The notes below the pieces were generated by a model, which made no database searches, was not told the origin of the DNA, and saw only the letters and a program-made list of their open reading frames with translations. Of a stretch of 64,000 nucleotides of DNA, positions 36,500 to 40,385 are shown one piece after another. A program made the position numbers and the translations under genes. The DNA is from Fibrobacterota bacterium (GTDB lineage Bacteria; Fibrobacterota; Fibrobacteria; UBA11236): positions 130,688 to 194,687 of the forward strand of contig JAQBPO010000033.1 in assembly GCA_028287465.1 (NCBI GenBank). The letters are read 5' to 3'. Positions within the stretch are counted from its first letter, which is position 1. Every line of letters starts with the position of its first letter.

Positions 36500-36975
36500 T
36501 CGTCTGCAGGGGCCCGGTCGTGCCCGGGCCGCGGTCCGGTGCGGGGCAGCTTCGGGCTCGGCTGTTCCTTAGTTGATGCCGACGGCCGGGCGGGTCGGTT
36601 TCCCTGGTTCTCGATATCTCCGTAACGCGCGTTGGACGCCGCTCGCACGCGGGGTCGCGCAAGGCGCTGTTCTGCGTTCCCGCCCGGCCAGGCCTCGCCC
36701 TGCGCTGATCCGCCCCGGACCGCGGCCCGGGCCCGACCGGTCGCACGGAGTCGGTCCGCAGCGGGCGATCGGACGGCGCGCCATGCCACGGTTGTTTTGC
36801 GGGTGGTGGGGCGCGGGAGGAGGAGCCATCCTTCAGGTCATCGGGTCGGTGGGGTCTCGCGGCGGGGCGCCCGGGAGTGGGTCTTGGAGGCGGCGGGGAG
36901 GTGGGTCGTGTGAGTTGGGGGCCGCGATGGCGGAGCGGACTAAGCGGTGGAATGCGCGCGGCGGTTGGGCTGGAA
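36500..36975 (+). repeat. Structured intergenic repeat, copy A
   Basis: About 475 non-coding bases. Three blocks are shared with copy B (40040-40385, opposite strand): block 1 at 36618-36670 (CTCCGTAACGCGCGTTGGA ... GGCGCTGT), block 2 from 36852 (GGGTCTCGCGGCGGGGCGCC) and block 3 at 36949-36966 (GGAATGCGCGCGGCGGTT). Block 1 is enclosed by a 24-base inverted repeat with one mismatch: left arm 36516-36539, right arm 36715-36738, containing GGCCGCGGTCC and GGACCGCGGCC. An insertion partly duplicating GTGGGTC lies after block 2. No reading frame is conserved between copies. Confidence 0.8.
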
Positions 36976-36996
36976 CATCCGCTCCCGGTTGGCTGG

Positions 36997-37998
36997 CTAG
37001 AGGAGCGGTCCGGTTCCTTCGCGCTCGGGGCCGGATTCCCCGAAAATGGCCTTGTATACGCCTTGGTTGCCCGGCTCGGGGTAACGCAGACGTACCCTCT
37101 CCCGGAGGGCGCGCGTATGGCCGGGCGCGTACTCGCGCGCGGCCGCGGCCTCCCTGAGGGGGTCGCTGCCGGTGGGTGGCAGGCCGGATCCGGCCGAGAA
37201 TACCAGCAAGCCGAATTTGCCCAGCTTCACCTTCCAGGCCTTGCGCTTCCCGGCGGGAAAGGCCTTGGCGGAAGCCAGGACGCCTTCGGCGAAGGATCCG
37301 GGAACCGCGGTCGAAAAGGTCCCGTCCGCGGAAGGCGCAGGTCCGTCCGGCCAGTCCATGACGGGCCAACCGTTGTCCTTGGCCAGGCGTCGGAGCTTGG
37401 CGGTGGGCCGGGTGCAGATGGGGAATTCGGCGAAGCGCAGAAGGAACCGGTCGTGCTGATGATCGGAGTAGGCGAAGGAGAACGGTCCCGCTTCGCCATA
37501 GCCCAGGGCCTTGAGGCGGATGATCTTGTTCTCGCCGCGCAGGTTACCGTCCCGGTAACGGGGGAGGCCGAAGCCGCCTTTGGGCCAGATGAGTTCCGTG
37601 CCCTGGATGTCCGCCATGGGAAGGAAGGCCTTGAGGTGGCGGAGGTAGAAGGTGCCGCTGGCGGAGAGGATGACCACCTTATGGCCCAGCAGATGGTGGG
37701 TCCAGAGCCTTTGCAATACCGGGACGTGGAAGCGCGCGCTCAGATCCTCGCGCACGAAATCCGCGGCCAGGAGATCCAGGTCCGCAGGGGATTCCAGGCC
37801 CATGGGCATCAGGAAGATGCGCTTGAGGGCATGGCTGTCGATGAGTCGCAGGGCGAAGAGGATCAGGCCGGCCCAGTTGGCCAATTGGAAGACGCGGCGC
37901 GCGGGGCGGCGCCGGTAATAGTAGCGGAGCCAATACAGGATGCTGTCACCGCTCAGGAGGGTGTCGTCGAAATCGAAAAAGGCATGGACCCGGGGCAC
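36997..37998 (-). CDS. HAD-superfamily phosphatase (HAD-IB-like) with C-terminal extension
   Basis: 333 residues. HAFFDFDDTLLSGDS is the DxDxT nucleophile motif I; VVILSASGTFYLRHL is motif II (Ser); GENKIIRLKAL and FSFAYSDHQHDRFLL supply motifs III/IV (Lys and Asp). The core of about 220 residues matches SerB-like or membrane-associated HAD-IB phosphatases; RRVFQLANWAGLILFALRLI is a cap helix. The last ~110 residues are Arg/Pro-rich, low-complexity and close to repeat copy A, possibly because the repeat disrupted the original 3' end. GTG start; TATTTT (38005-38010 complement) ends six bases before it. Divergent from DUF4954. Substrate unknown. Confidence 0.78.
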   Translation of the reverse strand: MPRVHAFFDFDDTLLSGDSILYWLRYYYRRRPARRVFQLANWAGLILFALRLIDSHALKRIFLMPMGLESPADLDLLAADFVREDLSARFHVPVLQRLWTHHLLGHKVVILSASGTFYLRHLKAFLPMADIQGTELIWPKGGFGLPRYRDGNLRGENKIIRLKALGYGEAGPFSFAYSDHQHDRFLLRFAEFPICTRPTAKLRRLAKDNGWPVMDWPDGPAPSADGTFSTAVPGSFAEGVLASAKAFPAGKRKAWKVKLGKFGLLVFSAGSGLPPTGSDPLREAAAAREYAPGHTRALRERVRLRYPEPGNQGVYKAIFGESGPEREGTGPLL

Positions 37999-38015
37999 CT
38001 TGCGAAAATAGAATA

Positions 38016-38044
38016 TTAAGAGGGGGCGGCAAAAAATCTATCTT
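38016..38044 (+). promoter_or_regulatory. Promoter for the DUF4954 gene
   Basis: TTAAGA at 38016-38021, 17-base spacer, TATCTT at 38039-38044, 38 bases before ATG 38083. It overlaps the divergent TTGCCG/TATTTT pair serving the HAD gene (complement of 38005-38032), so the two genes share an 84-base control region. Confidence 0.4.
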
Positions 38045-38082
38045 GTCGACGGGACCTCGGACCCTCTCTCAAAACGGGCATC

Positions 38083-39990
38083 ATGAGCGGAAAAAACGTG
38101 CAAGGAATCCTGGAAGACCTGTCGGCCAAGTTCGACAAGGTCCTGGCCACGTCCGAACTCGTCGCCGGCCTGAGGAGATTGACCCAGACCGATCGCCGCC
38201 TCTCGTCGGGACGTCCCCTCAGTTACGGCGAACGCCTTTGCCTCGAGAGCCAGGGCAACATCTGCGCCGACTGGGCGCGCGTGCGCATCGAAAGCGATGC
38301 GGGCATGGAAACCATCCGCAACAACTGGTTCGAGGGCGATGTCCTCATCGCCGGATTCCGCGGCGAATGGAAAGGCCCCGATGGCCGCGCCTGGCCGGCC
38401 GGCATGGCCAACTGCCGCGTGCTCGACGCCGTCATCGGCAATGCCTGCCTGTACCATATCGCACGCCTGGAACGCCAGGTGATCGAAGACGGAGCGGTCC
38501 TGGTAGGCCTCGGCGAAATCGACTGCCCCTCGCCCACCCTGTTCAGCCTGGGCACGGCCATCCATCCCGGCACGGAAGCGGGAACCCGCAGCGTGTGGAT
38601 CTGGGATTCGCTCACCCTGGACGATTGCATGGACGCCATCTCCCTCACGGCCGACGCGCAAAAGACCTTCCAACAAAAACTGGACGCCGTCCTCGCCCCG
38701 CTCCGTTCCAGGTTCGGTTACGTCGGCAAGGGTGCGGCCGTATCGCATGCGCGCCATATCCACTCCTCCTTCATCGGCCCGGGCACCCTCATCACGGGCG
38801 CCTCCCTGATCCGCGAAGCCGCCTTCCTCTCGACGCCGGACGAACGTTGCGTGGTGGCCGAGGAGGCCTGGATCGAACACTCCCTCCTGCAGCCGGGCGC
38901 GCGCGTGGAATCGTCCGGCAAGGTCTCCAGCAGCGTCCTGCTCGAGCATTCCTCCGTGGCCTGGGGCGGCATGGTCTTCCAAAGCGTGGTCGGGCCCAAC
39001 ACCCAGGTGAACAAGGGCGAGATGAGCACCTCCATAGTGGGCCCCTTCGTCGGCTTCCACCACCAGTCCCTGCTCATCTCCGCCATCTGGCCCGAAGGCC
39101 GCGGCAACATCGCCTACGGAGCCAACGTCGGCAGCAATCATACCGGCAAGAAGCCGGACCAGGAAATCCGCCCCGGTGAAGGGAACTTCTTCGGCCTGGG
39201 TTGTTCCATCAAGTTCCCGGCCAATTACGAGGACTCGCCCTACTCGATCATCGCGACGGGCGTATCGACCCTGCCCCAGCGCTTGGCCTTCCCGTTCTCG
39301 CTCATCAATCAACCCTTGTCCAGCTTTCCCGAACTGGGCCCCGCCATCAACGAGATCGTTCCAGGCTGGATGTGGTCCGACAACTCCTATTCCCTGGTGC
39401 GCCGCAGCTACAAGTTCGAAGGCTCCAACGAAGCCCGCCGCCACGACTTCACCATGGACAAGACATCCTCCTGGAAGACCGGCTTCTTCGCCGGCCGCAT
39501 TTTCGCTTCCGCCCTGGCCCGCAAGGTGCTCAAGGCACGGCAATCCCTCCGCGCCGCGCCCGCCGATCGTCCCTATCACCTTGAGAGCGAAATCCCCGGC
39601 CTCGGGAAGAATTTCGTGCGCAACAAGGTCCGGGAACGCGCCGTAGCCGCCTATGAAGACTACCTCGTCTTCTTCCTGATGCGCACCTTCACCGATCGCC
39701 CCCAGGAAGCCTGGGACCCGCAACTGCACGAGCTGATCGCCGCCATCGCCAAGGAACTCTCCATCGGCGCGGACACCAAGGCCTACCTCGCCGCCCAACG
39801 TTCCCGCCTCCCCGTACTCAGGGACAATATCCTGACCTCCCTCCAAAGGGATGACAAGCGCGGCCGCCAGATCTTCGACGACTACGGCGACTTCCACTCC
39901 CCTCCCGAAGAAGACGCCGCCATCGCCCGCCTCGACAAGGACCTGAAAGAACTCGGCCAACGCCTGGAAACCTTCCTGAAACCCCGCTAA
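38083..39990 (+). CDS. DUF4954-family protein (left-handed beta-helix)
   Basis: 635 residues, cytoplasmic. Middle portion (about 55-400) has the irregular hexapeptide pattern of a left-handed parallel beta-helix as in sugar-nucleotide acyl- and nucleotidyltransferases: VLIAGFRGEW, VIGNACLYHI, VIEDGAVLVGL, SSFIGPGTLITGASLI, SVVGPNTQVNKGEM, SIVGPFVGFHHQSL, YGANVGSNHTG. The last 200 residues are helical. This matches the DUF4954 family I know from Bacteroidota, Spirochaetota and Fibrobacterota. The NHTG/GEGNFFGLGC segment is strongly conserved-looking and may be the active site. Activity is unknown; a role in sugar-nucleotide or envelope metabolism is plausible. Lies between two inverted structured repeats. 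Confidence 0.82.
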   Translation: MSGKNVQGILEDLSAKFDKVLATSELVAGLRRLTQTDRRLSSGRPLSYGERLCLESQGNICADWARVRIESDAGMETIRNNWFEGDVLIAGFRGEWKGPDGRAWPAGMANCRVLDAVIGNACLYHIARLERQVIEDGAVLVGLGEIDCPSPTLFSLGTAIHPGTEAGTRSVWIWDSLTLDDCMDAISLTADAQKTFQQKLDAVLAPLRSRFGYVGKGAAVSHARHIHSSFIGPGTLITGASLIREAAFLSTPDERCVVAEEAWIEHSLLQPGARVESSGKVSSSVLLEHSSVAWGGMVFQSVVGPNTQVNKGEMSTSIVGPFVGFHHQSLLISAIWPEGRGNIAYGANVGSNHTGKKPDQEIRPGEGNFFGLGCSIKFPANYEDSPYSIIATGVSTLPQRLAFPFSLINQPLSSFPELGPAINEIVPGWMWSDNSYSLVRRSYKFEGSNEARRHDFTMDKTSSWKTGFFAGRIFASALARKVLKARQSLRAAPADRPYHLESEIPGLGKNFVRNKVRERAVAAYEDYLVFFLMRTFTDRPQEAWDPQLHELIAAIAKELSIGADTKAYLAAQRSRLPVLRDNILTSLQRDDKRGRQIFDDYGDFHSPPEEDAAIARLDKDLKELGQRLETFLKPR

Positions 39991-40039
39991 GGCTTCAACC
40001 CTTCTCCTCTCTCTCCTCTCTCTTTCTCCCGGCTCCCCC

Positions 40040-40385
40040 GCAGCCAAAACCGCCGCGCGCATTCCGAAGCGTAGCCCCACCGCCGTCGCGGCCCCGACTC
40101 ACGCGACCCACTCCCCGGGCGCCCCGCCGCGAGACCCACCACCCCGCCGCGCGAATAGCCGGGGGAAGGCTACGGTCCCGGGCTATTCGGCGGAGGTCGA
40201 AGGCATGGCCAAGCGGGCAACCCTACAGCGCCTTGCGTGACCCGCGTGCGAGCGGCCTCCAACGCGCGTTACGGAGGACTTTCGACCCACCGCCCCGCCC
40301 CGCTTGGCCGGCAGACCCGGAGCCCCGAATAGCCGAGGCCGCAGCCGTCAGCCCGGGACCGTAGCCTTCCCCGGGCCTCCCGTGC
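40040..40385 (-). repeat. Structured intergenic repeat, copy B (inverted relative to copy A)
   Basis: About 345 non-coding bases. Contains block 1 (complement of 40225-40276), block 2 (complement of about 40115-40137) and block 3 (complement of 40048-40065) of copy A in the same order. Block 1 is enclosed by a perfect 23-base inverted repeat, 40162-40184 and 40350-40372. In the helix core copy A pairs GGCCGCGGTCC with GGACCGCGGCC, while copy B pairs GGCTACGGTCC with GGACCGTAGCC: two base pairs changed on both sides. A second motif, CGAATAGCC (40152-40160, 40326-40334) can pair with GGCTATTCG (40181-40189) in either of two ways. Confidence 0.8.

Follow-up and report, generated by a model that had tools for sequence, protein, structure and literature searches.

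The two inverted copies, A and B, in the 64,000-nucleotide stretch of Fibrobacterota DNA analyzed here (the window) belong to a genus-specific family of non-coding fold-back elements, which are approximately 230 bp long and located mostly on the 3′ side of ordinary genes. The arms of the elements evolve by paired changes without wobble intermediates, and we infer that copying of DNA between the arms is the main cause of their complementarity. We propose, with a probability of about one half, that the arms of this genus-specific family are maintained by template switching, that the elements may have a role at 3′ ends, and that they spread by insertion. The family is new, and its geometry, its placement, and the evolution of its arms by paired changes are directly observed. 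A cmscan search of Rfam with the window region and 18 other loci returned no credible match, in agreement with the original prediction, made from the letters of the window alone, that the class is not a known one.

Copy A is located on the plus strand, between the genes of a bacterial sugar transferase (PF02397; 35045–36487, plus strand) and of a HAD hydrolase (PF12710; 36997–37998, minus strand), which is convergent to it. The 5′ (left) arm of copy A (36514–36539) begins 26 nt past the stop codon of the sugar transferase, in the same direction as the gene, and pairs with the 3′ (right) arm (36715–36740) at 25 of 26 positions. The arms enclose an inner helix P2, with its 5′ side at 36584–36594 and its 3′ side at 36679–36689 (the coordinates of the 5′ side were read off the sequence), and a conserved core at 36618–36670, which is defined by its similarity to copy B. 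A G-rich tail (36741–36996) stretches from the right arm to the HAD gene.

On the minus strand, copy B occupies the interval between a DUF4954 gene upstream of it (PF16314; 38083–39990, plus strand) and a glycosyltransferase gene (PF13524; 40404–42227, plus strand), the start of which abuts the left arm. The left arm (40350–40376, minus strand) is 27 nt from the glycosyltransferase start codon and pairs with the right arm (40158–40184) at 26 of 27 positions. The two sides of P2 are at 40299–40309 (5′) and 40207–40217 (3′), the conserved core similar to that of copy A is at 40225–40276, and the G-rich tail (39991–40157) is antisense to the DUF4954 gene and downstream of it, all on the minus strand. 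The folding energy of single-stranded DNA is far below that of dinucleotide shuffles for both copies (z of −6.8 for A and −4.0 for B).

Both copies are present where the original prediction placed them. Its inverted repeats around the first shared block were refound, and the spacings from the left arm to this block and from the block to the right arm agree between the copies as it had described. The three blocks that it reported as shared by each copy divide into two groups: block 1, which matches between A and B at 97% over 36 bp and at 95% over a further 19 bp, forms the core within the hairpin, but blocks 2 and 3 are outside of the hairpin, in the G-rich tail. The inner covarying helix P2, which had not been listed, is present in both copies.

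Further copies, for which a search of related genomes had been suggested, extend the family to at least 38 arm-bearing elements in five of the six species of one uncultured Fibrobacterota genus, with one genome compared per species. This number combines 36 counted elements with L177 and L210 of species G005, which were recovered without a covariance model, the former by an inverted-repeat scan of 200 kb and the latter by orthology at ftsK. The two richest species contain approximately 15–20 elements per genome. The arms are approximately 21–36 bp long (mostly 26–32 bp), nearly all perfect and ungapped, and usually separated by 166–176 nt; between them is a core that is loosely conserved and contains one covarying inner helix. 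The arm sequences are almost unrelated from copy to copy, with near-perfect complementarity inside each copy. The elements therefore lack the conserved terminal repeats of an ordinary transposon, as had been argued from A and B, and in this they differ from MITEs and other derivatives of insertion sequences. The spacing of 166–176 nt is retained even in copies that have almost no sequence similarity left above background, and thus selection likely acts on the overall geometry. Copy 5B and some other copies are degenerate.

In the genome of the window, a DNA search identified partial matches; in two sister species, it identified complete copies. The site of copy B is also occupied in G005 and G004. 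Beside the sugar-transferase gene, G005 has a second copy, positioned after an inserted epimerase gene, and G004 has the tail repeats only. A covariance model built from 11 loops matches, at E ≤ 1, 16 loci in the genome of the window, 16 in G005, six in G002, five in G004, three in G001, and weak ones only in G003; the weakest of these matches are not all real, and most of the fetched loci do show arms. The neighboring genes are ordinary and include secDF, ftsK, an rseP-like M50 protease, a DegP-like protease, polyA polymerase/cca, and purD (identified from its sequence, not by a family search).

The covariance model (R1) has no match, under strict filters, in the 145 genomes outside the genus among the 151 genomes of the phylum searched, and the portions of other genomes scanned for inverted repeats contain no similar element. 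Phages and plasmids gave no match, and an origin from either was rejected; 12 viral contigs that contain a core motif have model scores only at chance level. Chance formation in GC-rich DNA was rejected as well, as 400 kb of shuffled sequence contain no inverted repeat past the same threshold. The arms do not appear to be guides to other loci: a 21-mer from the arm of copy B matches, genome-wide, only its own two arms. Our search of the literature on such repeats in Fibrobacteres found nothing relevant. Within the same order, a genome of another family has a different inverted repeat, the arms of which are conserved (TCACCGCAAAG..) and approximately 144–156 nt apart (L251:1828-2029, L251:13449-13649, and L252:2787-3012).

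The inner arm positions of the 36 elements comprise 930 Watson–Crick pairs, 8 G-U, 9 A-C, 31 pyrimidine-pyrimidine, and 9 purine-purine combinations; the surplus of pyrimidine-pyrimidine over purine-purine mismatches, observed on the plus strand of the element, is without explanation. The equality of G-U and A-C does not arise from the way the arms were found, because the arm finder scores both alike. One subfamily of eight copies could be aligned over the stem and inner helix. In this alignment, two-sided changes occupy 40 cells and one-sided changes 3, and 23 of the 37 pairs have a two-sided change. The covariation exceeds that of shuffled and slid controls, as none of 500 shuffles reaches the covariation score and the number of two-sided changes is larger than in all 500. 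Between orthologs or nearest copies, 49 compensated changes are of the transversion type and 35 of the transition type, and 25 changed positions are unpaired; some of the compared pairs have a member in common, and the alignment of some arms is uncertain. In the safest comparisons, those of G000 rseP with G005, of B with 4B, and of 5A with 4B, compensation accompanies nearly every change. We assigned the subfamilies and chose the ortholog pairs ourselves.

Compensation mediated by G-U pairs in RNA favors transitions and leaves wobble pairs behind, whereas arm-to-arm copying would do neither. Copying of DNA is the preferred explanation because G-U is no more frequent than A-C, one-sided states are nearly missing, and double transversions are as common as double transitions. 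The original prediction that the arms covary between copies is borne out, but a step from this covariation alone to a selected RNA structure is not. In the proposed mechanism, the nascent strand would fold back and the 5′ arm would be copied into the 3′ arm by intrastrand template switching, and a single mutation would thereby alter both arms at once. The classic cases of template switching at short quasipalindromes have a shorter range than arms approximately 170 nt apart, which counts against the mechanism.

The structure first proposed could be a transcribed RNA, either a processed non-coding RNA or a 3′-UTR element, with its stem under purifying and compensatory selection. Such an RNA would agree with covariation beyond that of the controls, which includes the inner helix, with the constant geometry of highly diverged copies, and with the sense orientation after stop codons. 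We nevertheless consider it unlikely, given that G-U is no more frequent than A-C in the arms, that one-sided states are nearly missing, and that double transversions are numerous. Furthermore, four elements contain a terminator-like hairpin with a T-run in the loop, before the right arm, and the RNA stem would thus often remain unformed.

The arms have a pronounced asymmetry. Read from the 5′ arm, the pairs are G-C (495), C-G (311), T-A (101), and A-T (23), and in the 5′ arm T outnumbers A in all 31 informative copies and G outnumbers C in 30 of 33. The excess of T over A holds for elements co-oriented with or opposed to their neighbor genes, and the corresponding skew is 0.57 in the arms versus 0.05 in nearby coding sequence. 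By itself, the excess of G over C carries little weight, as a similar skew is present in the coding sequence nearby. Intrastrand template switching predicts an excess of G-C and U-A pairs, as read from the 5′ base, if the nascent strand fixes the 3′ arm from the 5′ arm (Monttinen and Loytynoja 2022, PMC8794818). The same asymmetry was noted in functional RNA stems generally (PMC8794818), which is compatible also with the structured RNA discussed above; the asymmetry therefore supports copying without proving it. Alternatively, a DNA cruciform or hairpin could itself be under selection as a site that binds proteins or structures the chromosome, with the arms kept by selection on DNA pairing. 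The strand-symmetric counts of G-U and A-C mismatches and the stable folds of single-stranded DNA are consistent with such a site. However, the strand asymmetry of arm composition in the orientation of the element, together with a placement 3′ of genes that is unexpected for a general chromosome site, makes it very improbable.

Approximately 28 of the 36 elements begin 0–36 nt past the stop codon of a co-oriented gene, as counted with our own codon-bias gene caller, where small overlaps stem from extended arms. Eight of the 36 are not directly past a co-oriented stop codon; in most of the remaining copies, including B, a divergent gene starts next to the left arm. L177, found by the inverted-repeat scan alone, is positioned 27 nt past a stop codon in the orientation of the gene. 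In the convergent gene pairs at L051, L081, L130, and L138, each gene has its own inward-facing element. The elements probably function in the formation of mRNA 3′ ends, or else are mobile repeats that target such sites, and both may apply together.

At the secDF site, G000 and G005 have an element and G004 a degenerate one, whereas G001, G002, and G003 have an ordinary terminator, a hairpin with a T-run, instead. Among the 36 elements, a hairpin with a T-run is found between the stop codon and the left arm in none, beside the right arm in one, and inside the loop in four. No U-tract lies 3′ of the right arm, and the element is therefore not a standard terminator, which counts against the reading that we favor. 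At L081:7263-7536, L120, L121, and L128, a CCGGCC..GGCCGG hairpin in the loop is followed by a T-rich run and resembles an intrinsic terminator.

The tails contain a G-quadruplex-like motif on the sense strand in 24 of 36 elements, versus 2 of 42 intergenic regions used as controls. On the 3′ side of elements there is a short G-rich repeat around GGAATGCGCGCGGCGG (L052:4585-4725, L054:4092-4351, L053, L055, and L058). In places the repeat is in tandem at a spacing of approximately 73–90 nt, and it occurs without a hairpin at the G004 sugar-transferase site and elsewhere in the genome of the window. It is possible, albeit doubtful, that the elements are a lineage-specific 3′-end device that replaces intrinsic terminators at some genes. 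The device would combine a long stem free in sequence, a structured loop of 170 nt, and a G-rich, quadruplex-prone tail. Its stem would be self-repaired by DNA template switching and could drift freely in sequence without loss of function. In the reading that we favor, in which template switching maintains the arms, the element may take over the formation or protection of mRNA 3′ ends at its sites and may have spread as a small non-autonomous insertion; these two steps are less certain than the copying.

Many elements are old, since they are kept at the same gene in different species (secDF, DegP-like, HDOD, ftsK, rseP, and others). The rseP sites of G000 and G002 are occupied by different subfamilies, and those of G001 and G003 have no element. 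The G002 copies at ftsK and the sugar transferase have decayed by the loss of their right halves. In the rseP–purD interval, the copies of G005 and G004, together with their tails, have the opposite orientation to that of G000 (L083, L120, and L126). Simple flipping of the loop was not seen; wherever an element is reversed, so is its tail. Half-element copies, which consist of the left arm or left half only, are in tandem with a complete element at L049:12240-12345 and, 3′ of the right arm, in L126. Copies 5A and 5B, and three copies of G002, resemble each other within their genomes. This turnover is typical of dispersed repeats, and the elements probably spread by insertion or conversion.

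The elements could also be non-autonomous and mobile, inserting beside stop codons or into terminators, with the hairpin as a substrate of an enzyme acting in trans and with no role for the host. Their presence and absence between species, the subfamily differences at one gene, the decay, the half copies, the similarity within genomes, and the terminators at the three empty secDF sites could all be explained in this way. We regard this explanation as improbable, because the ends are not conserved, no linked gene was seen and none was seen inside the elements, and many copies are old and orthologous. Target duplication is not evident by eye, in flanks too diverged between species for alignment of the junctions.

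Covariation is usually regarded as the best evidence of a selected RNA, but the strong covariation pattern of this family points to DNA copying. The family could be a caution for covariation-based RNA discovery and could provide natural cases on which to test template switching. Its placement after stop codons raises the question of how transcripts end in this uncultured Fibrobacterota genus.

Integron attC sites follow stop codons in the orientation of the gene, and their structure is kept while the sequence varies. The elements share this position and the precedence of structure over sequence. However, an attC site has a short imperfect stem with R and L boxes and extrahelical bases, whereas the arms of the elements are longer, ungapped, and near-perfect over 21–36 bp, and the elements are located at dispersed housekeeping genes such as secDF, ftsK, and rseP instead of cassette arrays; identity with attC was rejected on these features of arms and neighbors. 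Intrinsic terminators occupy the same place after the stop codon, and the sibling species have one at the secDF site. The elements differ from them not only in the missing U-tract but also in a stem that is several times longer and in the structured loop of 170 nt. Identity with intrinsic terminators was rejected, as a T-run directly after the hairpin was not found as a rule in the 36 elements.

Like ERIC (RU-1), RU-2, RU-3, REPIN/BIME, and the stem-loop families (Cozzuto et al. 2008, PMC2267715), the elements are short, non-coding, dispersed, intergenic, and foldable. Sequence conservation defines those families, whereas here the arms are unconstrained in sequence and retain only their complementarity and spacing. 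The described hairpins maintained by template switching are those in miRNA and rRNA (PMC8794818), whereas here the hairpin is a repeated bacterial element with arms of approximately 28 bp, approximately 170 nt apart, in which no spacer inversion was seen. Nevertheless, the elements resemble these hairpins (PMC8794818) and the products of quasipalindrome mutation in E. coli in their multi-base compensatory changes, which go beyond wobble-reachable transitions, in a surplus of G-C and T-A pairs as seen from the 5′ arm, and in their perfect stems.
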